A DNA stretch of 64,000 nucleotides, from NCBI GenBank assembly GCA_951799445.1, contig OX637297.1, forward strand, positions 15,562,001 through 15,626,000. The letters run 5' to 3'. This stretch comes from Pseudisothecium myosuroides (taxonomy: Eukaryota > Streptophyta > Bryopsida > Hypnales > Lembophyllaceae). Shown here piece by piece: positions 4,758-50,550 of the stretch. How positions within the stretch are numbered: position 1 is the first letter of the stretch; every line of letters begins with the position of its first letter. The translations under genes were made by a program, and so were the position numbers. The notes below the pieces were generated by a model that did not search any database, had not been told where the DNA came from, and saw nothing but the letters and a program-made list of their open reading frames with translations.

Positions 4758-5047
4758 CTTTGAAGTCACTTAGAATTTGAAGAATCTATCACAAATTTTG
4801 CTTCAATATACTCTTATTTGTTCACTCCAAAAGTAGAAAGCTATGAAAGAGCTTGGTGGCCTATCATTATTAGGTATGTAAGAGCTTGGTGGTCTTCAAA
4901 CTTGGATGAAAAGTTTTTTAGCTCCTAAAAAAATTTTCATCCAAATTTGAAGACCACCAAGCTCTTTCATACCTTTCTATTATTTGGAGTGAACAAATAA
5001 GAATATAATAAAGCAAAATTCATGACAAATTTGAGGTGACTTCAAAG
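4758..5047. repeat. 290-bp foldback (inverted-repeat) element
   Basis: The two halves are near-complements. CTTTGAAGTCACTT at the left end pairs with the AGGTGACTTCAAAG side at the right end. The arms stay paired through GAGCTTGGTGGTCTTCAAA to an axis near 4925, around CTTGGATGAAAAG and its complement. Whole-length pairing with no coding capacity suits a MITE or foldback transposon. I saw no clear target-site duplication. Confidence 0.75.
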
Positions 5048-5086
5048 CCCAGTTATATTGTAATGTAGTCTGATCTTTTCTTTGTT

Positions 5087-5290
5087 GAGTACTCAACGAC
5101 GCTAGCATGCGAGCTTGGAGCGGCGAGCTTGTGAGCTGCGAGCATGTACCTTGTGAGCGTAGAGCTTGAAATTTTTTTTTTTATGAATTATTTCTAAAAA
5201 TAAAACTGTTCTATATTTTTCTTTGAAAAGAGGAGAAAATTTACTATTTCTAATAAGTTATAGGACCTATGACCACTACCCCTATGACTG
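5087..5290 (+). repeat. Dispersed GAGC-rich repeat, partner of the inverted copy near 24.1 kb
   Basis: AGTACTCAAC is followed by GCTAGCATGCGAGC, several GAGC/GTGAGC blocks, a T-run and a stretch with CTATGACC. Read in reverse complement, 23980-24118 shows the same order: AGTACTCAACC, GCTAGCAGGCGAGC, CTTGTGAGC, T-run, TCTATGACC. Similarity is patchy, so both look like old copies of one repeat. Confidence 0.4.
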
Positions 5291-6086
5291 TGGATTTCAG
5301 TATATAAAACTGTTATACTTGAAAATCTCGATATTCTACGAAATACGACCTTCTTACTTCGGTGCATAATTTTGGACTTTGCTCACCTTCTACAATTCTA
5401 CTCTATATGCAATAATAGATTTTTTCTAAAACACAATACAATCAACTGATCAACTATTATTCACAAAAAGAAAGGTGGTTATTACATACCCTCTACAACA
5501 ACTGTTCCATATCAGCTCTAAAGCCTTAGCTCAGTATTGAGAACGCACCTACTAGCGTAATTCAGGGCCTCACAAAATTCCAACTCGGGCCATCGGCTTA
5601 GAGTCTATTGGACCTGTCGCATATATAGTCCAATCTAAAGGAGTGACTATTTATTGGGATTTATTTTTTAGTGAATGCGGAAGACATCTTCCTTAAAAAA
5701 AAATTGAACATGAAAAATAAAGAGGGAGAGGAAATGAAATTTAAAAAAAATTTGAAAAGAAGTGGGTTTAGGTTCAAAATAAAATAAAAACAAAATTTAA
5801 AAAAGTAAGGGGAAAAAAAAAAAAAAAAGAATGGGAAAAAAATGGGAAAGGTCAAAGAAGACAAATTAAAATAAATTATTTGATAATTATACGTCCGTTA
5901 TTGGATAAGGGGTGATCATTGTAGTTCTTGGTCATTCACACCCTCATATTGTTAAATGACACATATTTCCATACTTTACAAATGCATAAATATATTCTAT
6001 TCCATATGCTCCAAATCATTTCAATCATACAAATTATATATTAATACGATGCAAATGAAGTACAAAGAAGAATGTCGATTGCCCCC
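5291..6086. other. AT-rich spacer with a purine-rich tract
   Basis: No gene is supported. Between about 5690 and 5865 the plus strand is almost entirely A and G with an A-run near 5815-5828; the minus-strand ORF there is just this low-complexity tract. Confidence 0.5.
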
Positions 6087-9000
6087 CTATTCTGAAACAT
6101 TGATGATCCCTGCTCGAAGTAAAAGAAGCTTCAACTCGTTGAAGCTATAACTGGGTGCATGAATGAACTGGTCATTATGGATGTCCATCTTGCAGAAGTA
6201 CCGATACAGGTAGTACAAGTGTTTGCAATTCACATACGCTTAACGCCCTCCAATAGCAGAAACGGACATTTGAACAAAGTCCGGACATGTGCATGAGGGA
6301 AACATACCCAATGTAATTTGGTACACATTTCTGTTTGGATCTACCCCAGTCTCTAATGACACTATTGCACCTAGACTTGGAAAAGGAAGCAAGGTCACTC
6401 CAAGAATTTGCCCTTTCACGTTTCCAGCACTCTCCCACTTGATCTGTTGCTCTGTACTTGGTGCATTTGCATTCCGTCGAATGGTTTGGTTGTTCCTTAT
6501 TGTTGGATACACACCTACATCTTGTGGCGGCGGGTGATCATAGTAGACACTCTTGAATATCTTCAACATGTTGAAGAGTCGTCGTGGTGACAATGTAGGG
6601 CGCTCTTGGAGCTGAAAACCAGCATGTTGTAAATACAATGTCTCCTCTCGATTGAGGTTGGTCCTGGTCAAAACAAGCCAAACCTCCGGCACCTCAGGCC
6701 TATCTATAACGTACTTGCGCTTTGTACCTTTCACACATCTTTCAATGTCATCTGAACAAAACCAGAAGTCTGCCATGACCTCTCGTTTAGTCCCGTAATC
6801 TTCCTTTCTACTACGGTAGGTGGGAGCTGGGGTTCCCTTCCATCCTCTTGCAATTCTAGCAATGCACTTCATATTTGATGTCCGTTGCTGTGCTTGACAT
6901 TTTGCGTTTGATTTATGGCTGATCCTTGCAATGTGCCACTTTGACGTATTGCAGTCGCTTTCAAATGCAATCGTGACATGCTTCGATGGTTGAACCTCAG
7001 TATGCTTTCTTTTCCCCTCAAAAGTCTCCATAAAAGCTGTATTGGACCTTGTTCGAACACGAGGTTGAGAGAAATTAACTTTGTCAGGTCGATGTGAGTC
7101 TCTAGCATCACCAATGGGAACGTCCAACTTCTTCTTTGTGCTCCCAAAGATCTCTTCTCCTTCCAAATGCGATATGCGAGTTCCAATACCCTGAGCTCCA
7201 GGCAATGTGTTCAATGCCTCTGCCATTTTTTTAGGGTCTCCGCTTCGTCTTGCAGCTCTCAGCTTCAACTCCCCCTTGGATGGACCAGATCCACATGTAT
7301 GACCTTTTAAGTAAGCACGGTAGTTTGTCATTTGGGTCCATGCACGGATATATCATCGCAAGTTGCGTCAAACAAATTGTTGCCTCGGTTGCCTGACATT
7401 TGAAGCCACTTGTTATGAATTGTTTCTGACAAGTTGCATGATGGCATGTCCGCCAGCTCCTCCAAACTCAAATCCTAGAAAGCCATCCCACAAATTAAAA
7501 TTCATTAGAATCATTTCAGACATCAAAGTTAATAACCACATTGAATTAAAAAAAATAGTCCACATACACTTCAATATAATTAAACAACATTACAATCTTT
7601 GGAAGAAAATTAATACACATAAATATTTCCTTTACAGAGAAACTTTGCAACAAACATACAATTCAATTTTTTTTTTCCCACCATGGGACCCAAAAAAGGA
7701 GGACCACAAGGGTGCCCAAATAATACCGTTGGATCCGACGGTAGTCTTTTGGTTCCCTTGAGGTACCCTTGTTTTTGGTCCCACGGTGGGGTGGGGGTGG
7801 GGAAAAATGCGTATGCTGTTCTACATGTTACATTACTCAAATCAAATATGAACAAACCTTCTTTGCACACTAGTATTTTACAAGACTACAATGCAACATA
7901 GGATTCCAAATTATATGCGAATATACCATTTGCATGAATCCTCCCCATTGCCGATATCTGAAATGCCAAAATGCCAGCCAATGCTCCAAGTGATGAAGAG
8001 CATCTTCATTGGCAGCTCTAGAGGATAACCACCATGATCGAATTGCAAGGTAACGTGTCTCTGCCTCCTCCATCGTCTTTGCATCTTTGTATTGCTTGCA
8101 TAGAGTATTGTGCTGCTATTGAAAGGCCTCCTTGATGTGCTTTTGAGTGTGCTTTTGAAGAGAAGTACTCCAATGCAACAAGCATGTCCTCTCCTGATTC
8201 TCCATTTTCTCATTGGTAGAACCAGATTCATAGACAATACGGATAGCATTCCAATTTGCCATAGCACTGTCTGCCATGAACCCCTTGAAGTTTGGGTGAT
8301 CTACTCCATGTCGTGACATTACAACATTCAAAGACCTCCAAAATTGCACTTGGATCTCAGTATCTTCAGATTGCATGTCACATATTGAAATGGTCATGAC
8401 CTTCTTGTATTCTGGATCGTACACGTGGCAAGCCATCGTCGTCCACTCCTTCACACGTTTCACGTGGTCAAACATCATCCACGCATTCTGCAGATTCCCT
8501 CCGGGTTGCATGCGCCTCACCAGGTCCACTCCACATCCAGGTCCTTCAGTCAGCATCTTGAAAACATACACTTTCTCTTTTCCTTGGCCAGGGAAGACGC
8601 TATCGTGAATGTATTCAAACCTACACTCCTTCTTCATAGTCATAATGCTGTCGATGACCCCCCCACGGTTGTTTGAGCAAAATGAAGATATCACATTGCG
8701 TATGTTTGGACTGCTTAAGTATTGAAAACGGTCCATTACCTCTTTGAGCTCTTCACCCTTCAACAGCTCCTTCTCTCCTTCTCCGTTGTGAAATAGGTAG
8801 TTTGTTAGAAATTCCTTGCTAGCAAAAAGAGCAATTGCGGAGTTGGTGGCCGTCGGTGTTTTGGCAACCTGCTCTGCAATTAGTCCACAAATTTCTTCTG
8901 TGGAATCTCTATACATGCCTTTCACAACTGGGTGCCCATGATCTCCAAAGTGAATGGCAGCCCTACTCATTTTAGGATTATCACTATAGCAGTAGTACAT

Positions 9001-10086
9001 CCTAGCATCGCATGTGCTCAAGCACGTAGGTGATTTTCTACAAAGTTTGCAAACTAGAGAAGAATCTTTGGGAGGACTCTCCCTTATTACAAAGGGAAAC
9101 ATTGTGTAACCACTCCACTCTGTTTCATTCTTCTTAGAAGCCCTCTTCAAGTAATCACACTGTAGATTCTCAAAAATCAGTTGACCAGCGCTGTATGACT
9201 TGTGAAACTTGAGATTGTCAGAGTTGTTAATGTTAGTCGTCACCAACTTACACCAAGGATGTCCGTCATATCGCTTGTCCATTCCTTCCAAATTCTTGGC
9301 TGCCGATGAAGACGAAGATGACCGACATGGAGGGAGTTCAAAAATGACGTCCCCGTCGAAAACTACTGGAAGGAACTGAACACGATGATGCTTCACGTTG
9401 TTTACATCCATCGTTGAGAGTTCGTTTTGCGAACGATGCATACTGGCTAGTCTCCTCAAACACTCCATTATACTTACTCGATCAACTGGAGTTGGATGCA
9501 CTGGAGGTCGCGAGAAACAAGATTGTACAGGATCATTTGACGGGGTTCCTGATAAACTATTCACAAATGAGATATCATGCGATACATGTGGACTTTCGGA
9601 AGGTACCTTATGAAGTGTCAAGTTTGGGGACTCTCCTTCCGACTCACTAGATAACTCTATGATAGTATCCAATTTCTCAACCTTCACTGTCCGCAAAATT
9701 GCAGTGCTTGGGAGGACTAGAAACACTTGACGAGGTGGACTTGGCAGAAAACTTCGAGACATGTACGGCATGTCCACTGTAGAGTTATCTGATTGACGAC
9801 TTACTATCTCAGTAGACACGGCTAGCACAGACAAGGGAAGTCCATAAGCTCTATAATTCCCGGAAGACAAATACCAACAATGACCTTCTTCTTCAAGTGA
9901 CTTCACAATCGGGATAAATTGTTGTAACTCCCCAGACTCTAAATTCTTCTCTTCTTCAACGTAGATTGAGGACTCCACAAATCTAAAGCGTATATGAAGG
10001 AGGTGGCTCAGAACTCTAGCACGCCCTCCTTCATCGACCGGAAACACCAATGGAACCTCATGACCATCTACTCGAATGAAAGCCAT
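6087..10086 (-). pseudogene. Mutator-like transposase copy with SWIM zinc finger, broken by two stops
   Basis: The chosen start is the ATG at 10086 (MAFIRVDGHEVPLVF); a longer start at 10167 adds only a hydrophobic leader. A Cys/His-rich region CKLCRKSPTCLSTC...HFGDHGH precedes the transposase core. Core landmarks are VYDPEYKKVMTISICDMQ, then GFMADSAMANWNAIR and RTCLLHW, matching the DDE-plus-C..H layout of Mutator-like elements. TAG at 8116-8118 interrupts KEAFQ-stop-QHNTLCKQ. The frame then runs through RSWWLSS and FWHFRYRQWGG to a donor at 7926 (ATG|GTATAT). After an intron of roughly 580 bp holding a core hairpin, a second long frame ends in CTCPDFVQM...VNCKHLYYLYR, a SWIM finger (CxC...CxH). 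TAA at 6240-6242 falls between the two zinc-ligand pairs. The end is TAG 6087-6089. The acceptor is not fixed. Two stops make it unlikely to work. Confidence 0.72.
7677..7790. repeat. Core hairpin A (GGATCC-core palindrome), 114 bp
   Basis: Left arm begins CCCACCATGGGACC and right arm ends GGTCCCACGGTGGG. The arms pair for about 50 bp on each side of core CCGTTGGATCCGACGG at 7726-7741. A T-run lies just outside the left arm. It sits inside the intron of the Mutator-like transposase copy. Confidence 0.85.
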
Positions 10087-10257
10087 GATTACAACACATG
10101 CAATGGAGGAAGCAAAAAACAAAAGCAATGGAGCTTTGGTGTGCATTACAAAACTCTTGAACTTCATTTGGAACTACAATTTCAAAAATAGATAGTGCAA
10201 ATTGATCATGGGGAACTCTACCATGATGTAGTAGGTCAATTTCAAATTCAAATTGCA

Positions 10258-10800
10258 TGATGACGTACGTAGTTCTAGGCCGCCAACCTTTACCTTCATG
10301 ACGACCGTCTTTTTGAAAGAATGAGGTTAGGCGGCTATGTCAGATACTTTGCTAGGTGCATGCTCTTAATTCTTGCCTTGTCAGTATTTTAGGAAGAATC
10401 ATAATGATAGTAGGCAACAATGCCAGTCATCTTTAAAGTGCATGCACTCTAAGTAGTTGCACTCCAAAATTTCAAATAATATATTAGATTACATGCATCA
10501 CTGCCTCACCTCAGATATATTTCCTAACAGAGTTGCTCTACTACTGCGAAATCCATAGTTCTTAAGATTGACAGCGCATTCAACTACATGTCAGTAACCA
10601 CAGCTAAAAAATATATGGCGGCTGCCTGTGTGTACTCTCCTACAAGATGGCATTTATTATGCAACCTCAGCACTAAGTTTGGACGACTACAAGTTGGCCC
10701 TTTCTCCCTGAAAGAGTCTTTTCAATTTGGTCGCAAAGGTTTTCCAGTACGTATCTTGTGGATGAGTGCTCATGTTCATTTCTGTTCTCCTATGCTTTTA
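10258..10800. other. Spacer upstream of the transposase copy
   Basis: Nothing beyond short chance ORFs is visible. The ORF from 10588 becomes coding-like only after about 10801. Confidence 0.4.
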
Positions 10801-11095
10801 GATTACCAAAGCTCAATCTCTGTTGCTCTGAAGCACACAAAGAAGAGGAAGAAGCGTAGTTCTCTATATTTCTCCTCTTCTAAGGCATTGAAGAGATCAA
10901 GGATGACCCGAGGGAAGAAAGTTATGTCCAAAACTAGTGATGCGACAGTAGGCGAGCTCCGAAGTCTCTTCGCTTTGAAGGAGGAGGTAGCGGCAGAGAG
11001 GACGACGTTGGCGGCCCAAACGTAGATGCACAGCATGAAGTAACTGAGGATACTAGCGTTGAAAAAGTTACAGGACATCAAGTTGTCTTCATTGT
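10801..11095 (+). pseudogene. Short helical coding remnant with two stops
   Basis: An AG at 10799-10800 precedes a frame rich in Lys and Arg (KHTKKRKKRSSL) and then a charged helix with MTRGKKVMSK and LRSLFALKEEVAAERTTL. TAG at 11023-11025 and TAA at 11041-11043 follow closely and the helix resumes after each (MHSMK, LRILALKKLQDI). Both stops sit where Gln would suit. It ends near a possible donor at about 11095. I do not recognise the family; a coiled-coil tail of a transposon gene is one guess. Confidence 0.3.
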
Positions 11096-11570
11096 AAGCT
11101 TCTCTCTATCATACTTCCATTCTTTGTAATGCATTGTACCACCTAAGTTATTGGGTTGCTTCATTGAAACTTCCATATGTTCTGTAGTGAGGGTATTCCA
11201 TGAATTCAATGAAATTAGATTCATATACTCCATGTGCACTCTAATGACGTCCATAATGTAATCCATTATCCATAGACTTAGAATTAGGAATGGATACCAG
11301 TGTAATACATGATAATCACTAATCATAAGAAAATATTTAGGTGAATCATGAATACGTAGGGAGGAAACAGTGTGGTTTTCATTTGTGGTTTTAGGGTTGA
11401 AGCTTGACTAGAATGAACTTCAAAGTCCATGGGTAGATGCTTGTCTTAAATCCAGTTTTATCTCATTTTTTCCATAAGAATTGAACAAGAATTCTCAATA
11501 TTAATATCAAAGAAACTGATCTGACGTATCATTAATGTATCTATGTAAAATTACATGGAGTAAATAAATG

Positions 11571-11759
11571 TACAGTAGAACATCTCTAAGTTGATAGAGT
11601 TGGGACTGGTCTAACACATTGAGTTAGAGAGGTTATTACATTAGGAAGGGCCATCATGTTCGTACGTGGTTCATACTATTAAGTTGGGACCGACAATTAA
11701 TACTTCCTGACAACGTTTTATTAACTTAGAGGGGATCAACTTAGAGAGGTTCTACTGTA
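11571..11759. mobile_element. Emigrant-like MITE, 189 bp
   Basis: The ends are inverted repeats. The left starts TACAGTAGAACATCTCTAAG and the right, in reverse complement, starts TACAGTAGAACCTCTCTAAG. TA at both ends fits a TA target duplication. The terminal CAGTAGAACCTCTCTAAGTT resembles the termini of Emigrant MITEs (pogo/Tc1-mariner superfamily). It has no coding capacity. Confidence 0.7.
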
Positions 11760-12315
11760 AATATCTCTAGATAAACTAATATGGTTTCTTCCCATCCTTT
11801 GAATTCCAAAATTTGAATACATAATTGTACATCATGAAGTTAGTATAATATATTTTTACTATAATTTTTTCACAATAGACAGCACGTGGGAGACACATTA
11901 AAAACCACTTTACGCCAAGAATATATTAGAAAAAGGTGTATATACATTCAACACTAAAAGAGAACCTTCATAATTGTAGCAACATCAAAATTTTGGGTAG
12001 ATACCATGTATGATGTCAACATGGCGTTCATCATAAGTACTTTGGTGCAACCCCAATCATTTTAAATCTTCTGTACAAACCTAGGTAGCATCAACAGAGT
12101 GTGCCTTAGTGTGCCCTATACAGTTCTATTCCTAGAAATTCATAGTAAATAGGGGCCTTCTTCAAAAATTCAAATGTTTAACTATAATTTTGTGACCTTA
12201 AATTGCAAATGAAAACATAATTACTCTTTTACTAGACCGTGCATCTAACCATGCTGAAATGGACATGATTTGTTGCATTTACCTTCATAAGGTTGTTAGC
12301 AACACCCACATATTG
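11760..12315. other. AT-rich spacer, no gene seen
   Basis: No supported coding frame or structured element. Confidence 0.4.
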
Positions 12316-12568
12316 TACACAAAATAGTGAAATTAGGTTAACCCATACTAATTTCTTGACATTTTTCACTATAAAAATATTTTAAGTTATTGTATAAGAA
12401 TGCAGTACTTTTGAATTAGTTATTGTTGTAATTAGGACTGATGAACCTCCATGTGTAAAAATGAAAATCTTCTTAGATATATTTGTTGATTTTCATGGCA
12501 TGTACAGTTACTTTCTTGATGTAAGGCAACCGAATTGTTAAGGCAACCTAATTTCAGTATTTTGTGTA
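12316..12568. mobile_element. TA-MITE copy 1, 253 bp
   Basis: It is bounded by TA and starts CACAAAATAGTGAAATTAGG. The right end is the complement of that terminus (CTAATTTCAGTATTTTGTG). The interior matches the copies at 15717 and 22614 in order: CTAATTTCTTGACATTT, TTATTGTA.AAGAAT, GAACCTCCATGTGTA, TTTGTTGA, AAGGCAACC. Confidence 0.85.
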
Positions 12569-13660
12569 GGTTAAATCACTGTATGGAATCAGTGCACAGA
12601 GTCCTCATGGATTAGAAAATGTTGCAGATGCCATGTGTTTAAAAAAATACCTACGAAAAATTACCAAAGTTTAGGATGTTGTACATAAGTCATGCAGGCG
12701 TCATGGATAATTTATTACTATATTACTATGGTAGGGAGAAATTGGACTTGGATTATCTAAAATTTGAAAGAGAAGCATGAATTTCCTCGGATTTGTTGAA
12801 ATTTCGCTCAAAATCCTTGAATTGCATAGAATTACATAGCCTAGAATTTATTTTCTTATGCACAAAGTTCCGCCACTTTGTGATAGCTAAAAAATATTGG
12901 TAATTTTTTGGTGAAGCAAAATGTAATTTTGGGGGGCAAAATAGCTAAATTACTACTATATTTTAATACCAATAGCCAAATTCTACCTAGGTATCACCTA
13001 GTTTTCTTATAGATATCACCAAGTATCACCCAAGTATCACAAGAGTATCAAAATAAGAATTGGCTCGTTCTTCCAAATAATTTAAAAATCATTGAACCCC
13101 AATCTCAGACGGTCAGACCTGACAAATTTAGATGGATGGTAATTCCATTTAATTGCATATCTGTAACTTATATGCTCAACCTGATATGCATTGGAATTCT
13201 GTGACTTCTGACATTCCCTCAGGAGATTATGGTTCCGAAATTCCTTTTCTGATCCATTGCCAATTTAAAGTTGGCAAGTTATTCTTGCGAATTTGAACTG
13301 ATGAATATCAGGATACTTTAACGAGATTTAATTCTAAATTGAGAACCTTGTAACGTTGTCACAAAATCTAAGATCTCGATTTAGATTAATTCTACGGTCC
13401 AAAATGAAGAATTTTAACTTGCCACGGCTTGAGACTTTGGCACGATACCTAGCTGATTATTAGGAAGCTCGACCGGCGGTGGTGTCTGCTGAGTCGCCTG
13501 AGCACCGATTTTGCTGAATCAGCGGGGAACTATAACTTGAATTTGTGGATCAGAAATTGCTACATTCCTTTCCTTTTGGCCTCTTCATCCGCTCACCGTC
13601 ATTGCGACATCTTCACGTCAGAGTTGCATTCGAGCTTGATATTTTCTCCACGATTTGCAG
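12569..13660. other. Spacer upstream of the ParB-methyltransferase gene
   Basis: No gene is supported. A short run of imperfect AGTATCACC units lies at about 12990-13050. Confidence 0.4.
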
Positions 13661-13675
13661 GAACCAGTACTTACC

Positions 13676-13768
13676 ATGACGGACACACAGAGCACTCGCA
13701 GTCGCAAGAGGGAGGAAGCAAGAAACGCAAGACTTGAAACTTTACCAGAGTCCTCTGCAGCAGTTGAG
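13676..13768 (+). CDS. Exon 1 of the fusion gene, with the likely start codon
   Basis: ATG at 13676 opens 31 codons with a Ser/Arg-rich basic start (MTDTQSTRSRKREE). The donor GAG|GTACGC at 13769 is in phase 0 and matches the phase-0 acceptor at 16653-16654. The start is chosen because upstream sequence in this frame has no coding look and an AG lies just before the exon. The following intron is about 2.9 kb and holds four core hairpins and one TA-MITE. Confidence 0.55.
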
Positions 13769-14218
13769 GTACGCATCGCAACCGCTTCAGTTCATCTTTT
13801 GCCTTACTTAGATGAGATCAGATTTTGCATCTTGAATCGAACTTGAATTTTCAACTTAGATCAATTAGCGATTTGCCGATTTCAATTAGTATGTCAAGAT
13901 CACGAGACTGGATGAAGTCGATAGAGATGATGAAAGAGTGGGAATGCTCTGGTGAGGATCGATTTAGAGAGAACTGATGGAGAGACAATATCCATGGCAG
14001 CCTAATTTTTGACGAAGAGAAAGGTCCTCGACCTGGGAGATATTCATCGCACGTTCAATGATACTCTTACTTAATTGAAAGAGAGTGACCGTACTGGAGA
14101 GAGATGTTGCGGTTTTACCCTTTTGTGATTATATGATAAGGTTCGATACAGGTTTTAAGGATCTAAAGAGAGAGTACAGAATCAACCTGTACGGAATAAT
14201 CTTGAAAAAGAAAAAATT

Positions 14219-14336
14219 GAACCTCGGCAGTACCGATTCTTGGAGTAGCCGCAGCCACCCCAGAAAGCACCGTCGGATCCAACGATGCTTTCTGGGGTGG
14301 CTACAGCTACCCCATGAATCGGTACTCCCGAGGTTC
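14219..14336. repeat. Core hairpin B, 118 bp
   Basis: Left GAACCTCGGCAGTACCGATT pairs with right AATCGGTACTCCCGAGGTTC, and inner CCACCCCAGAAAGCA pairs with TGCTTTCTGGGGTGG. The core at 14270-14285 is CCGTCGGATCCAACGA. It lies in intron 1 of the fusion gene. Confidence 0.88.
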
Positions 14337-14606
14337 TCAGGTTGCATTCTTGTTCAAATGCCGCCATCTCCTTTGTGAGTTGACAGAGTGGTACGTAGAT
14401 TGGACTGCCTTGCACAGGCTTCACTTCAAGGTTGAATTTCCGAACTTCCTTGTTCTCGATGAGAGGCGTACTCAATCGATGTCTCATAGGAGCTTCAAGT
14501 GTTGGTGATCGACCGATCGTCCACCCAATACTCATTGAGGCTATTAGTCGATTAGTTGCATCTCAGTCAATTCGACGCTTGTTGCTCAGAAAAATGCAAT
14601 CTGGTT

Positions 14607-14718
14607 TTCTTGAGGTACCGGAAACAGGGGTAGCTTGAACTACCCCTGGAAGTACCGTCGGATCCGACGATACTTCCAGGGGTAGTTCAAGCTACCTCTG
14701 TTTCCGGTACCTGAAGAA
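14607..14718. repeat. Core hairpin C, 112 bp
   Basis: The arms are almost perfect for about 55 bp. AGGTACCGGAAACAG pairs with CTGTTTCCGGTACCT, and CTACCCCTGGAAGTA pairs with TACTTCCAGGGGTAG. The core at 14654-14669 is CCGTCGGATCCGACGA. It lies in intron 1 of the fusion gene. Confidence 0.9.
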
Positions 14719-15177
14719 ATGTTTATCAGGTTTCTTAGAACTTGATCTTGGACTAAACTTCTATCAAAAGCCGTAAGTAGAATGACGTACTTCGTTTGAC
14801 AACTCACGTGTCAGTTTCAATTCGTAGCTTAGACGTCATTTTTGGGCCGGAGTGTGAATTTTCTCTACCATTCGAGCTATATAGCTCCGATCGAGATGAA
14901 GACTTCTCAATATTTCAAATACATCTGTTGACGTACTAGTAGTCGTCATTCTTGCTGGTCGATCGATGGACCAGACAACCATGTAGGCACGCGCTGATTT
15001 CTGAATTTTGATCTAGTCCATTAAAGACTACAGCATGCTTGAATTGATTTTCTTGACTTGTGACTTCAAAAGTAGTCTCTCCGTCATCTCAGAGATTGAA
15101 TCCGGAAGAATTTTGAAAGAGTACGAACTAAGCAGTTTCCTGCTGCAATGTTTACAAGCTCATCGATGGAGCAGTCT

Positions 15178-15297
15178 GGTACCTTGCGGGTACCAGAAAG
15201 GAGAGTACCAGTAGATAGCTCGGAAAGCACCGTCGGATCCGACGGTGTTTCCTGGGGTACCCGCTAGTACCCCTCTTTCTGGTACCCGCAGGGTACC
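15178..15297. repeat. Core hairpin D, 120 bp
   Basis: GGTACC ends face each other. GCGGGTACCAGAAAG pairs with CTTTCTGGTACCCGC. The core at 15230-15245 is the full 16-base palindrome CCGTCGGATCCGACGG. GGTACC occurs repeatedly in the arms. A T-rich tract follows directly. It lies in intron 1 of the fusion gene. Confidence 0.9.
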
Positions 15298-15716
15298 AAA
15301 CAAGGATTTTTTTTATTTTTTATTTATTTTTTCATATTTTTAATATCTATTTGTTAAATTTTTTATTTTTTATTTTTTTTCATTTTTTTATTTAAAAAAA
15401 TAAATATTATTAAAATTTACATATTAATTATTTATTTATATTATTTATTTGGATTCAGATTTTCATTTAAATTTTTGTTAAAGACATTCCAATTTTATTT
15501 GAATTTAATTATGGGTTAATTTTCAGTTAAAGCCGTTTTAAATTTTAGTTCAATTATTTTGAAAATCATATTTAGTTCTTATAATTAATAGATGATTAAG
15601 AATTTTAAAAACTCATTTCATTGATTACTAATTCATTTAGAATTGATATATTTTATTTTATTTTCAGATATATATTTAATGAATATTTATGTTGTATTCT
15701 AAACTTCACACAAATC

Positions 15717-15969
15717 TACACAAAATAGTGAAATTAAGTTGCCCCACTCTAATTTCTTGACATTTGCCACTATATAAAAATTTTCAGTTATTGTACAAGA
15801 ATGCACTACTGTTGAATTAGGTGTTGTTGTAATTGAGACTCATAAACCTCCATGTGCACAAATGGAAATATTTTTAGAAATATTTGTTGACTTTGATGGC
15901 TCGTAGAGTAACTTTCTTAATGTAAAGCAACCTAATTGTTAAGGCAACCTAATTTCACTATTTTGTGTA
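15717..15969. mobile_element. TA-MITE copy 2, 253 bp
   Basis: Same termini and interior as the copies at 12316 and 22614: TA, CACAAAATAGTGAAATTAAG at the left, CTAATTTCACTATTTTGTG plus TA at the right. It is inserted in intron 1 of the fusion gene. Confidence 0.88.
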
Positions 15970-16320
15970 TGTGATGTGTTTTTAACTGTTCATTTATGAC
16001 ATATTATAATATATTATTGCAAATATATTCTTGGAGAGTAATTTTATTATTTAGTTTCATTTTCAATTTAGAATTTTGATTTTATATTAATAATTTTTTT
16101 GGAAATTGTCAGAAGTTTTCTTATTTACTGATCCTTAAATTCTTATATAAGATTTTGTGTATATGCATTCGCCACTTGAATCTTCATTTCTACTTCTATT
16201 TTGAGAAGTATTCACAATTTTGATTTGAAATGTGTATTGGAACTTCTGTTTTTTGGACTATTAGGATGTGCAAAGTTATTTGATGGATTTTCTAAAAGTG
16301 ACCTTGAATTCCTAAAGTTC

Positions 16321-16430
16321 ATGATGGGCACCAAAACTAGGGGTACTACTTGGTGCCCATAAAAGGTCCGTCGGATCCGACAGACCTTTTATGGGTACCA
16401 AGCAGTACCCCTGGTTTTGGTACCCATCAT
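16321..16430. repeat. Core hairpin E, 110 bp
   Basis: ATGATGGGCACCAAAACTAG pairs with CTGGTTTTGGTACCCATCAT, and inner CCCATAAAAGGT pairs with ACCTTTTATGGG. The core at 16368-16383 is CCGTCGGATCCGACAG. It lies near the 3' end of intron 1. Confidence 0.9.
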
Positions 16431-16654
16431 TAGCTTTTTACTATTGTTAAAACTTCAGAGGTGAGGATAGACCCATCCATATAATAGTTTGATTATTTAT
16501 AATTTTGTTATTTTTATTTAGAGAACTCATTTCGAAAGACATCATGCTCAATGGCTTGTTTTGTATAACTATTGTTATTATGCTTTTGCTTTATGCCACA
16601 ATGAAAATAACAGGCTTGTAAATTGGACATGTGTACTGCAATTTGCTTATACAG

Positions 16655-17125
16655 GCTGTGGGTGCCTATCTTGGTCAAGCATCATCTCCCATGGATGAAA
16701 GAGTACCTATTCCTACTGAAGTGGTTCCAGTTTTAGAGGTTGGAGCGCAATCAGAGCCTGTCACTCGTGCTCCAACGAACGTGGACATCTCCAGCGATTC
16801 TGAGGCAGAGGAAGGTGAAGAGGACGACTTGGTAAGTACTGGGGCCATTGTGGATCCAGTAGATCTTCCTACGGACTCAAAGAAACGGCCACGTGGGAAC
16901 CGTTTTAGTTGGCAGAGGAATTGGAAGGGAAGGCAACCTGTTTTCTCATTGGAAAGCTCAGAGACTGAATATAGCTCTGAACCAAGTGTGTCCGAATCCG
17001 TTTGTAGCCCTCTGCAAGAAGAATACTGCGATTGTGCATGTAGTGCTAGTACACCGAGACACGAGATTGTCATCATTCATCTGAGCTCTGACTCAGATGA
17101 ATCGATAGACATAGACTCATCATAG
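16655..17125 (+). CDS. Exon 2 and its read-through: acidic region with SUMO-interacting-like motifs
   Basis: The acceptor at 16653-16654 opens AVGAYLGQASSPMDERV and an acidic stretch VDISSDSEAEEGEEDDL. A consensus donor GTAAGT at 16832 joins in phase 0 to the exon at 17341. However, the frame stays open past that donor for almost 300 bases, is Ser and charge rich, and ends in EIVIIHLSSDSDESIDIDSS before TAG at 17123-17125. VIIHL followed by SDSDE has the form of a phosphorylation-dependent SUMO-interacting motif, as does VDISSDSE. Either the intron is sometimes retained, giving a short protein, or the second part is a coding remnant. RNA evidence would decide. Confidence 0.45.
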   Translation, partial: AVGAYLGQASSPMDERVPIPTEVVPVLEVGAQSEPVTRAPTNVDISSDSEAEEGEEDDLVSTGAIVDPVDLPTDSKKRPRGNRFSWQRNWKGRQPVFSLESSETEYSSEPSVSESVCSPLQEEYCDCACSASTPRHEIVIIHLSSDSDESIDIDSS

Positions 17126-17340
17126 ACAGGATTTTGTTGTTTACTTCTAGCATTATCTGGATATATATATGTGATGGCCATGACTTTTGTTGGCTTATTT
17201 TTCATGTATTTACTTCCATATTTTTCATTTCATATATATTGCTATTGTAAGCTTCACAATACCATAGATTCATTAACTACTTTAGTGTTAATAGTTTGTA
17301 AAATCATTTGTAACAGATTTTGTTTTGTATTGTCTTTTAG

Positions 17341-18306
17341 ATGGAATTATCCCCTGTAAATGAAACTCAGGAGGAGAGAGTTTTGGAAACTCCAAAAACG
17401 GGTGAAAAAGCTCAGCCGGATATTGTAGGTGAGGGTGCGGTCCCATTTATGGAAGCGGACGTGGAAGAGGATGAGGAGAAGGAATTGTTGGAGGATGAGC
17501 TTCGTCGACTTTAGAAGGTTGATTCTGTCGCCACTATCAATTTGCTGAGAATGAAGCCAGCAAAGATGTTTCGGCTTCAGATTCCTCTTTGTAGGCTTGT
17601 AGCGATGCCAATGGTCCGGCCGACATTGTTATGCGACATCAAGAAACTGGAGACCGAATTCGTGTTTGGATATCGCGAGGGAGCAGCAGTTTTTTACGTG
17701 TCAACCACCAATGAGGCCGAGGAGACATCTGAGTTCACTATCGATGAAATGAATGGCTGGAATTCGATATGGAACAAGAAGAATGATGAATTCAACGATT
17801 ACATTGAGTCTGAGCCAGCATTACGATTCTTGAAGAACTTGAAGTTCTTTGTCTGCGACGGAAATCATCGACTTCAAGCCTGGATGAGGTATATCACGAG
17901 GATTGAATATGCAAACCCGGATTTTCACTGTCTGGTGGACTGCATTGTCTTGGACACTAAGGGGAAGAAGTTAGTCATGCAAGTCATGCATGATATAAAT
18001 AAGTAAGTACGCAATTCTCCTTTTAGTTTGCATTTCTAAGTACTTTGTAATCATTTTAAACTTCATGTGGCGAATTTTGTTTGGGAGAAATGACCTACAT
18101 TTGGTTTGACATGCAGGGCGACGGAGGACTCTCACGTTAAGACGAACTTGGTACATGATTTGTACCGGGTTCAGAAGTACGGTCAGCTTCCGTTCGAGAA
18201 GTTCAAGGAGTTGCTGAGGCCCTCAGAAGTCAAAATATGTGTCGGTAAACCGAGCAAGAAGTGGTATTCTATGCCTCAGGAAGTGTTTACTTCATTTTTC
18301 TTTTGG
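17341..18306 (+). CDS. ParB-like region of the fusion gene (two exons)
   Basis: Exon 17341-18002 joins in phase 2 to 18117-18306. After an acidic leader with TAG at 17512 (RRL-stop-KVDSV, probably CAG), the frame reads MFRLQIPLCRLVAMPMVRP. About 100 residues on comes FFVCDGNHRLQAWMRYI, which matches the ParB/sulfiredoxin-fold signature of a strand ending in Gly, then N/E-HRL and Ala. MHDINK across the splice, then TNLVHDLYRVQKYG, matches the following helices. In ParB proteins this fold binds nucleotide at the G(N/E)HR site. The assignment is by motif only and the N-terminal half of the fold is weak. Confidence 0.6.
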
Positions 18307-18414
18307 GTAAGCATTTCCATGTGGTCACATTCTCTGTTCTCATTATATTGCTTTATAATTTACTCTTTTAATTTGCACGTATTATTTCATTCACAAGGTG
18401 CTCGTGGTTTGCAG

Positions 18415-19258
18415 CAAGAAATTGCACAGGCGGCGGACGCGGGGGTGAGAAAATATAACGAGACAACCGAGTTTGAACTCAAGACTCCAGATGGTGTAGC
18501 TTATGCCATGCGGATTGCAGCGAAAGAGAAGAATCGAATATTAATCATGAAGATGGGTAAACTCTTATTAGTCGCACAGCCAAGTAACAGGGCCGGATTT
18601 CTCCAAGAGGTCAGTTTAATTTTCAATGGATTGATGACATGTTTTCATTTTGATTTGCATGTCATCATTGGTATAAACGAATATTGGATTTTTTTGCAGG
18701 TGGAGAAGCATTGGACCGCAAATGAGTCTCCCGAGATGACATTGGAGAAACTACAGATGGTGGCGACATGTGCCACTACATCTTTTCACAAGGTGAAATT
18801 CTTGCAGTGGTGAACTCATCATTTCCATCTCGTGAAGCTCGGAAGTTTCCGCCAAGACCCGTTTCTGAGGGTCATCTTGGGCCTTTTTTGAACAAATGTG
18901 TTTTTTACGCCGGGGTGAGTGACTATGTGCTGTACTTATTCAAATTTCTAAGTTTTTTGAAATTCAAACACAAGTATTCTATTTCATGAATTGTGGGGCT
19001 AATCTGTGTGTTCCTTTAACAGATTGAAGATGCTACTGTAGAGTATTTTGATGATGTTGTCAAACAAGACAACATTCCAATCAACTACGGGGGCCCGCAG
19101 CAGCCAGAGTTCTTAGTAGAGTACTTGGAGGGATGGCAGAGGAAGCTTTGGAAGCAAGCTTTTGGACCATTCTTGAAAGGCAACAGCCCGTTCAAAAAGG
19201 GGGACAACTTCATGACATTGGAAGGGACAAATCTTGTCGTTTGAAGGGTGTTATATCG
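18415..19258 (+). CDS. Helical middle of the fusion gene (three exons), frameshift and TGA
   Basis: Exons 18415-18609, 18700-18914 and 19023-19258 encode a mostly helical region (QEIAQAADAGVRKYNETTEF, VEKHWTANESPEMTLEKLQM, IEDATVEYFDDVVKQDNIP) with no family I can name. Within the second exon the frame changes at about 18785-18810: CATTSFHK continues in one frame and VVNSSFPSREARKFPPRPV in the next, with no room for an intron. This fits loss of one base. TGA at 19242-19244 reads NLVV-stop-RVLYR and would be Arg from CGA. The exon ends CG|GTATGA and joins in phase to 19693. Confidence 0.6.
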
Positions 19259-19382
19259 GTATGACCAAAAAAATTTATAATGTATTTCTTTGTAATTATG
19301 TGTTTCTTAAGATTGTGAGGACGTGCTTATTTCGTCTACAAGATGCTAAATTTTTTTTTGTTTTCCTAATTTTTTTTTTTTT

Positions 19383-19484
19383 AGAGAACCCAAAATGGGA
19401 GTACCTTGAGGTACCTCTAAAACCACCTGCGGATCCGACGGTTGTTTTAGAAGTACTTGAAGGTACTCCCGTTTTGGGTTCTCT
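19383..19484. repeat. Core hairpin F, 102 bp
   Basis: AGAGAACCCAAAATGGGAGT pairs with ACTCCCGTTTTGGGTTCTCT; the next segments also pair. The core at 19426-19441 is CCTGCGGATCCGACGG, one internal difference from the shared palindrome. A T-run abuts the left arm. It lies in the 434-bp intron 19259-19692 of the fusion gene. Confidence 0.87.
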
Positions 19485-19692
19485 TCTTTATTCCCAATAT
19501 TTTTTGGTGGCTTTATTGGATATTTTGACAATTTGCCGATAGTATTTTTGTGTATTATGAGAAACAATAGTTTCCATTGTTGTTTGATCTCATGGCTTAT
19601 TTTACCATTTACATTTTTGTAGAAATAGTTTTAGGATTTCAATTTTCATTTTTTAAATATTTTGTAATGATTGGTTTGCTTTTGTATTGTAG

Positions 19693-20416
19693 GTACTTCA
19701 AGCTGGAGCTTGAAGCCAAAGGTACAATCGCCAGGAATGACCTCCCTCCGTTTTTGTCCACATGGTTGGACCGCAGTTCCAGTGTTGGCATGTACACTCC
19801 AGCCCAGATGCGTACCTTCACGACAGCTCATCTGAGAGGTGGGGGTTGGTACTTAGATTGCAACGGCACTTTCGTTCATCCGTCGGAGCTACAATTGTGG
19901 CAATCTTTGGAAGGCAAAGGCGTTATTGATTACGTGGTTGATAAGTTTGCAGCATTGACTAACAAGCAGAGAAAAAGGGCCATTGCAAGGAGGGAGGTCA
20001 ATGATAAGAAGAAAGAAGCCAGGCTTGTGAACCTGGTGATCACGAAGGAGAAGAAGGAAGTGGAGCAGCAGGAGAAGTTGGCGGAGAAGGAGAAGGAGAA
20101 GGAAAAGGAGAAGGAAGAGAAGGCCAAGTCGAAAGGCAAGAAAAAAGTTGATGGAGGTGGTCTAGTTCGAGCTTCTTCGACGGTCGATCAAGGATCCCAG
20201 ATGCAAGTGGGATCTCAAAGCGGGATGAAGAGGAAGGCACTTTCACAGCTGACTGAAGAAGTCATCACTCATAGGACGCAAGTGATTGTTTTGGGTGATG
20301 ATGACGCGATTAACATGGAGGATTTGATTCTGAATCTTTCCATTGAGGATGTTGTAGAGAACATGGACTCCGATCCGCCGAATTGCTTGACAGAGGTGCT
20401 AGAGTTCTTGAGGAAG
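19693..20416 (+). CDS. Exon 8 of the fusion gene: conserved block and charged linker
   Basis: The exon reads YFKLELEAKGTIARNDLPPF, then WLDRSSSVGMYTPAQMRTF, without stops. It then enters a long Lys/Glu helix (KEKEKEKEEKAKSKGKKK), probably a coiled coil or single helix linking the front and back parts. The last third is acidic (VLGDDDAINMEDLILNLS). The donor AAG|GTAATT is in phase 0. Confidence 0.65.
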
Positions 20417-20520
20417 GTAATTTTTTTTATTTTGTTTAGCCTTTCATGAATGAACTTAACGAAATGAAAAAAAGTTGGGTGAATGATTAATTAATTGTTT
20501 GCTGTAATTTATCTTTGCAG

Positions 20521-21539
20521 CTGTCGGCAGGAAAGCCTCGCATGTACGGAGGTGTAGTGAACCGGTTTCCGGGAGTGGACCTTGTGATTTTCGATTGTCC
20601 AGATAATTTGCCCGTGCCGGGAGTGTCTTTAACTAAGAATGAGGTGCCGACGTGGAACGCGAACAAAGAAAACGAGGCTCTTCAGTCGGCTTTTGCTTTT
20701 GCCGAGCGGCATCTACAAGACGACGGATGCATGATTGTTTTTCACTCTTGGTGTGTAGATTCCAAGAGTAATATAGTAGGATTGTGTGAGACATATCCGA
20801 TGGTGAAGTTCAAGGAGTTGTGTGGTGTCAACCGTCTGCCGTTGACATCCGCTATTGAGTCGGGTTGCACGGTAAGTGTAATGTTGCATGATGAAATTGA
20901 AGTTTAACTTGGTGATGCATCTTGGTATTGTAGTTTTTGACGAATATTTGATTGCAATGATTGCAGACGATGAAGTTTGGCGTCAGTATTCTTGTAAAGA
21001 ATCTTGGCGACGAGGCAAAATCAAATTTTTGTTTCAAACGATAAATGGCGATGAAGAAGGCTAATGTTGACCTCCTTTGGAACGACATGATCAACAATTA
21101 CACTTTCGATGAGAACATGGCGATGAATGGTGATAAACCATGGTGAGCGAGTCGAGAGAAGGACCCTTGCTTCTTGCAAATGCTCATTGAAGGCACGACC
21201 GTTGAAGGAGATTTGGTATTTGATTGCAGCGCATCTATAGGTTAGTCTTTCATTTTATTATTGAAAATTTGAATGAGGTTTTGCGAAATGAGTCATTGAA
21301 CTGAAGCTTTTGAATTTGTGAATTTCAGGTGCATCGATTCTCGCTTGTTGTGGCTTAGGACGTCACATTGTGGCTTTGGAGGAAAACAAAGACATTTTTG
21401 ATGCCCTCCTAGAACCCTTGAAGAAGGAGGTTCCAGTTGTAGTGACAACACAACCAATGCCAACAGTTGTTGAATCACAAGATCCCGAGTCGGCACCTGT
21501 GGTGCCCAAGAGGTTTATTCGGAAAACTAAACCTAGTAA
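20521..21539 (+). CDS. Permuted amino-methyltransferase-like region (three exons), two stops
   Basis: Exons 20521-20871, 20967-21240 and 21329-21539. LVIFDCPDN lies where beta-class DNA amino-methyltransferases carry motif IV, usually D/N/S-P-P-Y/F/W; here it is DCPD, which would likely not support catalysis. A helix-strand FAFAERHLQDDGCMIVFHSW follows, as after motif IV. Next come KPW (motif X-like) and GDLVFDCSASIGASIL with GRHIVALEENKDIFD, the form of motif I and II (FxGxG, then acidic residue). Motif IV before motif I is the beta-class order. TAA at 21042-21044 and TGA at 21144-21146 (KPW-stop-ASRE, probably Arg) break the middle exon. Alternative reading: a methyltransferase-derived fold without activity. 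Confidence 0.6.
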
Positions 21540-21634
21540 GTAAGTTTCAATTTTTTCCCTCATTTCTTGGCATGAGGTAATATTCATGCTTCAAAAGTCT
21601 AACATTGTAATATTTACATTTGCAATCACACAAG

Positions 21635-21887
21635 AGTGATGGCAGCAAATGCGTTGATGAAGAATAGAAGTCTTCTATTCAGTCTGGAGAAGACTTTTGA
21701 TCTTCCAGTGTATGCCCAACAGTTGGCTTTGGCGTTTGCAAATTTTGGCTGTCAGAAACCGGAACGCAAAAAAAATAACTATGCTTTGAATGTTTTAAAT
21801 TTTATAGATAGGTCAGCGTCTGAGGGTAGGGAGACTTCTGAGTCGTCTACTGCGGACAATTCAGCGACCGAGTCTACTGCGACTTAG
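21635..21887 (+). CDS. Last exon of the fusion gene
   Basis: It joins from 21539 in phase (AA|A = Lys). ALMKNRSLLFSLEKTFDLPV and ALAFANFGCQKPERKKNNYA form a compact block, followed by a Ser/Thr/Glu-rich end and TAG at 21885-21887. The block is stop-free. Function unknown. Confidence 0.65.
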
Positions 21888-22613
21888 ACTCACGAGATTG
21901 ACATATCTCGCGAGTTACTGTATTGTGTGTTGGTTATGATTATGATTGGATTTGTGTGTTTTATGGCTAAATCGTGGGCGTATTTTTTTTTTTTTTCCAT
22001 TTGAGCAATGCGTTATTTCTTTGGGGTATGCAATAAGTGATAAAAGTAGTAATATAAGAATGAGCACATGTGAAGGGCCCCAAAAAAAATTAGGATTGAA
22101 AATAATGATTTCAATTAGTATAATATGAGGTATGTAAAATGTCTTTAGATGTATCCTAAACAGAAACGGTTACATAAAAATGGAAGGTAGTAGTGATAAA
22201 GAAAAGTTAAGATTTTTTATTGTTTATGAATTCAATGGGAGAGATGTCCTAATTCTGGATGACGGTCTGGCATTGAATCCGACATTTACACTATATTTTA
22301 CTCTTATTCTAAATTCATAAAACTTTTATGATCTAACTTATGTACCACTCTTAATCTGAGAATTTGAAAAAGATCATTAATTTATCACATGCATTTTTTT
22401 TGTTTTGTACTATAGTAGTCGCTATGCAAGGAATAAAGGATGGTCCCTCCCAAATTAGACCTTTGTGAATGAGCCACGGTAATAGAGCCCAGTACTTAAA
22501 CACCCAAGCATGAAACCCCGATCTCATGCATTCTATGTTTTGTTTAGCGCAGAATTTTAGTTAAGCAGAGCCTAATTGATGTTGTATTCACCAATCACAT
22601 GAAGTTTTTGTTG
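21888..22613. other. AT-rich downstream DNA, no gene seen
   Basis: A T-run lies at about 21981-21996 after the gene. No polyadenylation signal could be singled out. Confidence 0.35.
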
Positions 22614-22867
22614 TACACAGAATAGTGAAATTAGATTGCCCCACACTAATTTCTTGACATTTGACACGAAAAAAAATATATTTAGTTATTGTACAAGAAT
22701 ATACTACTTTTGAATTTGATATTGTTGTAATTGGGACTCATGAACCTCCATGTGTACATATGAAATTTGTTTTTGAAATATTTGTTGACATTAATGGCTT
22801 GTAAGGTAACTTTCATGATGTAAGGCAACCTAATTGTGAAGGCACCCTAATTTCACTATTTTGTGTA
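22614..22867. mobile_element. TA-MITE copy 3, 254 bp
   Basis: TA, then CACAGAATAGTGAAATTAGA at the left and CTAATTTCACTATTTTGTG plus TA at the right. Interior order is the same as in the copies at 12316 and 15717. It lies 730 bp past the end of the fusion gene. Confidence 0.88.
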
Positions 22868-23979
22868 GTTAGCCTAGGCTTTTATTTAGCACAATTGAAT
22901 ATAAACCCTATTAAATAACAACTACGTGTGGTGAACTATCTTATTGATATCTTATTGAACATTTTGATTGGCCTCTACTTATATTTTGATGAGGCTTACA
23001 TTCATAATCCCATAACATATTAATTAATAGGAATTCTTGATGCAGCCATTACATTTCAGGACGGCCCTGTGAGGTATTTCCCTCGGTTTGTGTGTAATTT
23101 ACCTGTTCTCATATGAAGTTGACCCGACGATGGTATGCTGAACTAGCCTAAGTGCATGAACTACATACATTCTTTGTACTTGCTACTTAACATATTCATT
23201 TCCTCACAAATTGGGCTTAAATTTTTATCTAAACATAGAGCTGTGAATATTCGTTTGCGGCTTCATGACAAAGCCTTGAAATTGTATAACTCCTTGAATC
23301 TTCTTTGTTTAGCTAGGATTTGCATTTGTAGCCTTTGTTTGTTGTTTCCACATGCATTATTGTTTTCTAGAAAATAGGCTTGCATCAGGCATTTTTGTCA
23401 AAGATGGCTTCCACTTACTCAAGCTACCTAGAAGTGTTAGGTATTGTTTGTGTTTTTATTGTACTTGATATATTTTTTAGACTTCTTAAAATATTGTCGA
23501 AAAATCTATTCTTCAAAGGAAAATTGGATTGGAGTGTAATCGACGTTCTTTCATATTTTTTAGAGCTTTGTAGACTTAGATATGACTTTGTACATGTAGG
23601 AGCGCTAAAGGATTAAAGAACCCATTAATTTTAAACAGTAAACCCTACACCAGATTCTGTAGTTGTAAGTAGTGTAAAAAATTAAAATAATATAGCATGT
23701 GATATATTCATGGTAATTGGGAATTAAAATTTAACCCTAAACCCTTTTTTAATGAGCCAAATTTAAAAAATTATATATATTGATAGACTGCAAAATAAAT
23801 GATCATCAAAAAATGATACCCCCTATTAATTACCCACCCTAAATGTATATCTTTATTTTTTTAAGATTGCACCCTTGAGGTGATTATATTCAAAATTGAC
23901 AAAATTTGGTGGTTGCAAATAATAATTAAACTAATTTTTCAGAAAAGCCTCGAGGTTGAAGAAAATGACCTCACATCTC
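22868..23979. other. Spacer, no gene seen
   Basis: Two short open frames (23156-23377 and 23380-23616) encode hydrophobic low-complexity peptides with no start context or family resemblance. I do not call them genes. Confidence 0.35.
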
Positions 23980-24118
23980 TTGAATCTTATGACACCCTAA
24001 TCCCACGGTCATAGATCCCTCATCTATTTTTTCTTCAAAAAAAGTTTCCCGCTCACAGGCTCACAAGTTCACAGGCTCGCCTGCTAGCAACCCTGGTTGA
24101 GTACTTGCACTCATTGTA
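23980..24118 (-). repeat. Inverted partner of the GAGC-rich repeat at 5.1 kb
   Basis: The reverse complement repeats the motif order seen at 5087-5290 (AGTACTCAACC, GCTAGCAGGCGAGC, CTTGTGAGC, T-run, TCTATGACC). Similarity is partial. Confidence 0.4.
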
Positions 24119-50153: not shown

Positions 50154-50218
50154 ATGGTGTGGTATATTCCACACCATTTCATCCGTCGGATGAGATGGTG
50201 TGGAATATACCACACCAT
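50154..50218. repeat. Hairpin G, 65 bp, related core half
   Basis: The two arms ATGGTGTGGTATATTCCACA and TGTGGAATATACCACACCAT pair around TTTCATCCGTCGGATGAGA. Each arm is also nearly palindromic on its own. The centre holds CCGTCGGAT, the left half of the core shared by hairpins A-F, but lacks GGATCC. Confidence 0.8.
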
Positions 50219-50371: not shown

Positions 50372-50550
50372 TTTGAAAACTCAAAATATTTTTGGCTTTG
50401 TATGAATTCAAGCTAAATGCTTGGTTCATTTTTTTAAAATTTTTTTTGGGGTGTTTTGTAACATAACAAAACACATTAAAAAAATAAATAAAAAAGAACC
50501 AAGCATGTAGCTTGCTTTCATACAAAACCAAAATCACTTTGGATTTTCAA
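50372..50550. repeat. Foldback of about 179 bp
   Basis: TTTTGAAAACTCAAAA...TTTGTATGAATTCAAGC at the left pairs with GCTTTCATACAAAACC...GGATTTTCAA at the right, around a T-rich centre. It touches the next foldback. Confidence 0.7.

Follow-up and report, generated by a model that had tools for sequence, protein, structure and literature searches.

How can a set of hairpins keep the two arms of each member matched while the arms differ from one member to the next? This question is raised by a stretch of 64,000 nucleotides from Pseudisothecium myosuroides (Bryopsida; assembly GCA_951799445.1, contig OX637297.1, positions 15,562,001 to 15,626,000 of the forward strand), here called the window, in which a reading made from the sequence alone had pointed out six hairpins, E1 to E6. 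All six are built-in parts of one DNA transposon of 19,002 bp and do not represent a free-standing family; a single gap-free palindrome family of 2 x 50 nt occupies fixed sites in many copies of this transposon. The answer that we consider rather probable is that the hairpins have long been retained inside a transposon similar to Mutator-like elements (MULEs), and that their arms are kept matched by episodic template-switch copying. Their positions, relative to the two transposon genes A and B, are the following:

7677..7790: hairpin E1, within the intron inferred for gene A; present at this site in 14 further copies
14219..14336: hairpin E2, in the A-B intergenic region
14607..14718: hairpin E3, in the A-B intergenic region
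15178..15297: hairpin E4, in the A-B intergenic region
16321..16430: hairpin E5, immediately upstream of where gene B has its first open stretch; present at this site in 9 further copies
19383..19484: hairpin E6, within an intron inferred for gene B; present at this site in 7 further copies

The sequence-only reading was correct in describing six near-perfect hairpins at these coordinates, with the centre CCGTCGGATCCGACGG present with 0-2 mismatches. DNA folding z-scores of the six range from -6.5 to -17.4, and with up to 3 mismatches allowed the window has 7 matches to the core, where 0.02 would be expected. The additional match, at 50183, is part of a different hairpin, a near-perfect one of 65 bp (50154-50218), with the centre CATCCGTCGGATG and with arms that are palindromes in their own right (ATGGTGTGG..CCACACCAT); a profile search of the window revealed no seventh member of the hairpin family. 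The claim that the elements have nothing in common except the centre and the fold must be abandoned, since the 12 arms align from the centre over 50 nt without gaps (consensus TCCGACGGTGCTTTTAGGGGTACCTAGAGGTACCCCTGTTTTTGGTACCC). Identity between elements at arm positions 9-50 has a mean of 57%, compared to 25% (standard deviation 6.6) for arms against random places of the window, and drops from 0.61 at positions 46-50 to 0.21 at positions 51-55. The gap-free alignment and the background identity past position 50 indicate that the six hairpins are one diverged family; words in the arms, such as GTACC, are conserved more than pairing requires.

Within each element the arms are 71-98% identical, and the idea that pairing is kept while sequence drifts was confirmed both among elements and at single sites across transposon copies. 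When the right arms were dealt among the six elements, the true pairing was the best of 720 deals; in the gap-free alignment, 29 of 48 pairs are changed on both sides, against 13.5 in shuffles. Furthermore, in five of the six elements pairing extends 7-12 bp beyond the 50-nt module into sequence unique to the site (P from 0.006 to 0.0001), E6 being the sole element that lacks this extension. An alternative fold with three hairpins was tried and rejected: the inner palindromes of the arms show a slight excess for their own partner, 5.64 versus 5.31 of 8 (3 of 2000 deals), and the covariation score on the six hairpins is 0.294, versus 0.538 for the long hairpin. The hairpin set comprised 29 non-redundant members, kept from the 55 of 61 candidates with at least 34 of 50 pairs, plus one from L032 (loci of the host genome are cited here by L numbers); in the dealing test of the inner palindromes two of the 29, apparently mis-centred, were omitted and five others were added. 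Exact cores in viral (10 loci) and prokaryotic (20 loci) collections do not belong to this hairpin family, their arm-arm identity being 6-21 of 41 positions, whereas the window hairpins reach 29-40 of 41. Translated hairpins used as queries in protein searches, and an arm-pattern search in viral contigs, gave no lead.

The limits of the transposon, its target-site duplications and its genes are given below; the two genes are in divergent orientation.

5094..24095: whole DNA transposon, 19,002 bp; left end CAACGACGCTAGC, right end GCTAGCAACCCTG
5084..5093: left copy of the 10-bp target-site duplication, GTTGAGTACT
24096..24105: right copy of the 10-bp target-site duplication, GTTGAGTACT
6087..10173, minus strand: gene A, transposase-like; ends approximate
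16622..20907, plus strand: gene B, several exons; exon boundaries approximate
16622-17125, 17515-18006, 18094-18813, 19571-20449 and 20491-20907, plus strand: open stretches of gene B

The ends are imperfect terminal inverted repeats (TIRs) of about 45 bp, with GCTAGC and GAGC repeats, as in MULEs. The left end is common to 5 other copies, in which the DNA outside is unrelated. In another copy (C7) the 9-bp duplication AAAATACTC flanks both ends (L067 on the left, L056 on the right); thus, both copies for which the two ends are available carry target duplications, of 10 and 9 bp, within the 8-11 bp expected for MULEs. Nested inverted repeats forming a hairpin of about 249 bp (4783-5031) lie directly left of the transposon; inside it an ordinary element of 256 bp, bounded by the inverted ends TACACAAAATAGTGAAATTA, occurs in two copies that are 86% identical (12316-12571 and 15717-15972), and a third similar stretch is found at about 22611-22868.

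The host genome, of 388 Mb, has a match to the LEAFY SAM domain at 103.6 bits and four weaker ones, compared to 0 of 14 control genomes; LEAFY is not known outside plants and their algal kin, so that a plant host is probable. The exact core is present in this genome at 37 sites, a complete count, and these are clustered. Most of them (33) are located within 20 kb of a match to gene A or B, an area that amounts to 0.65% of the genome. The other four were tied to the transposon through fetched DNA: two are in L052, beside homology to gene B and to the right end, one is in L065, between a gene A homolog and a right end, and the last is in L066, a locus that shares 96% identity with L065 over 2.1 kb. 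Every one of the 37 exact cores is therefore linked to the transposon. When up to 3 mismatches were allowed, the genome yielded 1208 places for the core, whereas the reversed control pattern yielded as many as 1554; for this reason the mapping covers exact cores only. Gene A DNA has at least 40 scored matches (of 244 candidates) and gene B DNA at least 44 rows in the genome; a gene B match is present within 25 kb at 23 of 40 gene A places, and the core-distance count took 40 of the 44 gene B rows, the other four being second pieces of loci already counted. Twenty stretches of 10 kb were selected around core matches, and hairpins in all of them (covariance model, 20/20) are expected by construction; 19 of the 20 match window positions 4000-26000 (blastn, pieces of at least 60 nt), while L053 matches other copies and the window hairpins only.

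This distribution bears on the possibility that small mobile palindromes, similar to miniature inverted-repeat transposable elements (MITEs) or foldback elements and born with matched arms from diverse sources, were inserted into the transposon. A single family with a sharp 50-nt boundary, present several times per transposon, would agree with such an origin, as would the arrays of six hairpins found in L065 (1457-2786) and L066 (1098-2426), with regular spacing of about 139 and 330 bp; judging from its ends, the L065 array appears to lie within a shorter related element of about 11 kb. However, all exact cores are tied to the transposon and show no independent dispersal in the genome, and a scan for target duplications around the single hairpins (arm ends 44-71, offsets up to 3) gave 0 of 6 with a direct repeat longer than 4 bp besides the GGTACC-type words of the family. 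Moreover, matched changes go on at one site after insertion, and we regard this origin as very improbable. The self-copying palindromic element proposed by the sequence-only reading likewise finds no support, given the fixed sites in a large transposon to which every exact core is tied; ordinary TIR families, the opposite outcome that it had envisaged, are not the pattern observed either.

Shared hairpin sites allow orthologous hairpins to be compared among the copies of the transposon. A single matching flank fixed the site in the more diverged copies; for E5 these were placed mainly by one flank, and for E6 three copies were placed in this way. Same-site dealing tests, from which near-duplicates were omitted, included 8 of 15 copies for E1, 6 of 10 for E5 and 6 of 8 for E6. 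At the E1 site own arms pair at 317 of 400 positions, versus a mean of 278.7 for dealt arms (7 of 20000 deals reach the own value); the corresponding values are 261 of 300 versus 246.0 at E5 (3 of 720 deals) and 250 of 300 versus 225.7 at E6 (6 of 720 deals). Matched double changes number 152, 49 and 66 at E1, E5 and E6, against 46.9, 9.1 and 17.5 expected, about three to five times the expectation, in copy pairs that are not independent of each other. At position 16 of E6, for example, A/A of the window copy corresponds to T/T in L041 and L044, and at position 20 of E5 the window copy has G/G where L040 has A/A. Thus, the arms change together over deep divergence; at E1, over short divergence, they drift independently.

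Rewriting of one arm from the other may also reach the flanks. In L064 the right flank of E1 (arm positions 53-59) reads CACCACC, like the left flank of the same copy, while AACAAAA is found there in its sister L059 and also in L058, L060 and L063; flank identity is 98.8/95.9% between L059 and L064 and 91.1/87.1% between L058 and L064. Since AACAAAA has been retained in L059 and in the other three copies, the direction of copying in L064, from left to right, is clear. A second tract is present at E5 in a group of near-identical copies (L037, L039, L041, L044 and L047, the L037 group), where the right flank agrees with its own left flank at 18 of 19 positions and with the right flanks of five other copies at only 9-13 of 19; the left flank agrees with other left flanks at 13-15 of 19, except that of L054, displaced by an indel, where the agreement is 4 of 19. 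A similar flank match in L049 (17 of 19) is unpolarised. Signs of in-situ rewriting of an arm, sometimes together with its flank, as expected for template switching, are found in the L064 tract, in the L037-group tract and in the coevolution at three sites.

In the proposed mechanism the hairpin strand would fold during replication, and the polymerase would switch template briefly to the opposite arm and then return; one arm, and sometimes the adjoining flank too, would in this way be rewritten from the other arm. Such events, if rare, could wipe accumulated mismatches and convert single mutations into matched pairs. Template switching is presented as creating and maintaining hairpins in PMC8794818, and as extending identity between the arms of quasi-palindromes in yeast in PMC3820800. 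Of the three ideas of the sequence-only reading, repeated renewal of one arm by gene conversion or snap-back repair fits best, given the joint change of arms at orthologous sites and the flanks that look copied. The same marks would, however, be left by gene conversion from arm to arm or by exchange with a different copy.

Besides this ambiguity, several results weigh against template switching as a general explanation. The dealing tests ignore the relatedness of the copies, and the L064 tract depends on four substitutions. The L037-group tract is unpolarised; it may reflect loss in the other copies, an ancestral longer palindrome having perhaps been broken in those lineages. Some agreement between left and right flanks, at 7, 11, 11, 11 and 17 of 19 positions, is seen in other copies too. 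Among six close E1 copies (window, L040, L039, L038, L043 and L036) none of the 15 pairs displays a matched double change; with 0 to 14 changes per arm, at most 5 positions are altered in both arms, and these are unmatched. Moreover, the hairpin at this site has decayed to 29 of 50 pairs in L036 (34 of 50 in L043). The lack of matched changes among the close copies and the decay in L036 indicate that correction is rare or site-dependent and not constant.

Substitution rates introduce a different explanation, namely that selection keeps the pairing: the transposon would need the hairpin, as DNA or RNA, and compensatory point mutations would be fixed singly. E1 evolves at about the rate of its flanks in six copy pairs, and E5 faster than its flanks between the window and L040 (92 of 100 identical, flanks 96%). 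Conversely, E6 differs from the window copy at only 3 of 100 positions (97 identical) in L035, L044 and L054, while the flanks are 89.5-91.6% identical and thus differ by 8-11%, suggesting that E6 may be constrained; between L035 and L044 the slowdown is hardly any (96 of 100, flanks 93.9/95.2%). E6 is therefore slower in three of four comparisons, a hint, against template switching, that selection may explain this site better than mutation alone. Selection would also account for the retention of hairpin sites in copies only about 65-75% alike, and for arm words such as GTACC conserved past pairing needs. However, close E1 copies have stable, shared mismatches, G.U pairs occur without strand bias (13 versus 17), and copying extends beyond the module into unique flanks, which is not expected under selection for pairing. 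As the explanation of matched arms, selection is thus considered rather unlikely.

The persistence of the hairpins is a related point. Of 7 copies selected among the more diverged ones (82-83% identity), 6 have the hairpin at the E1 site, L062 having other DNA there; loss is documented in L040, where a 52-bp deletion, apparently between ACCCC repeats, crosses the centre of E2, and where, compared to the window, the E3-E4 interval is gone and one hybrid hairpin remains (around 2542 and 2884). Persistence at fixed sites suggests use; since palindromes are prone to deletion, their retention at the same sites would imply, as a weaker inference than that on the copying, that the transposon requires at least some of them. 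One possible use would be as a cis-acting set of palindromic landing sites, with the conserved centre and the GGTACC words, for a transposon protein, for which gene B would be a candidate, kept usable by template switching. This proposal draws on an analogy with the clustered sites of partition or replication protein systems, and we put it forward as a doubtful one.

A structured RNA had also been suggested from the sequence alone. If the introns and the intergenic region of the transposon yielded small RNAs from hairpin RNA genes, pairing could be kept for their processing, in agreement with the strong folds and with the location of E1 and E6 within inferred introns. Nevertheless, palindromes fold equally on both strands, an Rfam search of the window was empty at gathering scores, and the suggestion is not supported by a wobble bias, since G.U pairs are 13 on the plus strand, 17 on the minus strand and 15 other; it remains a minor rival, with very little probability in our judgement.

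Concerning the coding part of the transposon, gene A has an open reading frame at 8116-10173, with similarity extending to about 7924 (tblastn), an inferred intron at about 7926-7475, whose splice signals were judged by eye, and a later exon at 6240-7352; 58 homologs were found. A GCM/WRKY-type zinc finger, a SWIM domain and a DDE transposase are the domains expected in a MULE. A SWIM-like CxC..CxH motif was identified by eye from the three-frame translation of gene A; in the window copy an in-frame stop (6240-6242) lies inside this stretch, with the second half of the motif behind it. The structure model of gene A weakly resembles GCM/WRKY domains and ISCth4, a transposase of the IS256 type; an unrelated mannosidase scores equally high, and thus no fold lead is significant alone. 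Reading frames of gene B are kept in other copies, some with stops. For one gene B exon DUF1015 is matched below the threshold (E 0.003; 17.0 bits versus a cut-off of 25.8); the structure model of one exon has a mean pLDDT (predicted local distance difference test) of 38 and was not used, and a ParB-type fold was not demonstrated. Family-model searches (Pfam, NCBIfam) gave no match over the cut-off for either gene, PDB sequence searches with the profiles of both gave nothing useful (for gene B, no match under E 0.001), and a search for gene A relatives in viral contigs gave no lead. Given the weak fold leads and the null family searches, the description of the 19-kb element as a large, two-gene MULE-like transposon is our judgement, with which the target duplications and the ends agree.

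Elsewhere in the window, an exon of an NLI-interacting-factor-like phosphatase is present at 1032-1583 (Pfam PF03031, E 1.5e-08), outside the transposon, and an inverted repeat with 302-nt arms, 93% complementary and 31 nt apart, is found at 50538-51172; pieces of it recur in L062.

The wider interest of this locus is that covariation of paired bases is usually taken as proof of selection on structure; with alignable copies of graded age and many homologous palindromes, selection and template switching become separable branch by branch. Furthermore, strong palindromes are normally unstable DNA, and here a large transposon carries them at fixed sites for long.

Among known systems, MULEs are similar in the 9-10 bp target duplications (two copies), the TIRs, the SWIM-like motif and the weak GCM/WRKY and IS256-type leads; the 19-kb element differs in its two divergent genes, in its about six palindromes of 100 bp and in that neither gene is matched by a family model over the cut-off. 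MITEs and foldback elements are equally palindromic and non-coding, whereas the hairpins described here have no duplications of their own and their exact cores no independent dispersal. The Tm1 Mutator/Foldback family of root-knot nematodes (PMC3169594), likened here by its title alone, would combine Mutator-type ends with a foldback structure. In Volvox, organelle and nuclear DNA contain short palindromic repeats (PMC2670323) that are also hairpins of related sequence in introns and between genes, in both orientations; they are shorter (14-79 nt in the plastid), have TAAA/TTTA loops and are mainly organellar, unlike the 100-nt, loopless hairpins tied to one nuclear transposon. This location argues against organelle repeats transferred to the nucleus. 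In sponge mitochondria, according to PMC2800124, two types of repetitive hairpin elements differ by complementary substitutions, a feature shared with the present case; their short stems, frequent loops and mitochondrial location are different. Among the titles and abstract openings listed by a literature search, mostly outside subscription journals, none concerned palindrome sets within one transposon. A similar process is quasi-palindrome correction by short template switching (PMC8794818, PMC3820800), in which the arms of imperfect palindromes become matched and their identity is extended; here it is deduced for many homologous palindromes by comparing transposon copies of a natural genome. 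Thus, hairpins within a transposon and template switching as a mutation mechanism are both known already; what is unusual is the set of palindromes and the directness with which the rewriting of their arms is observed.

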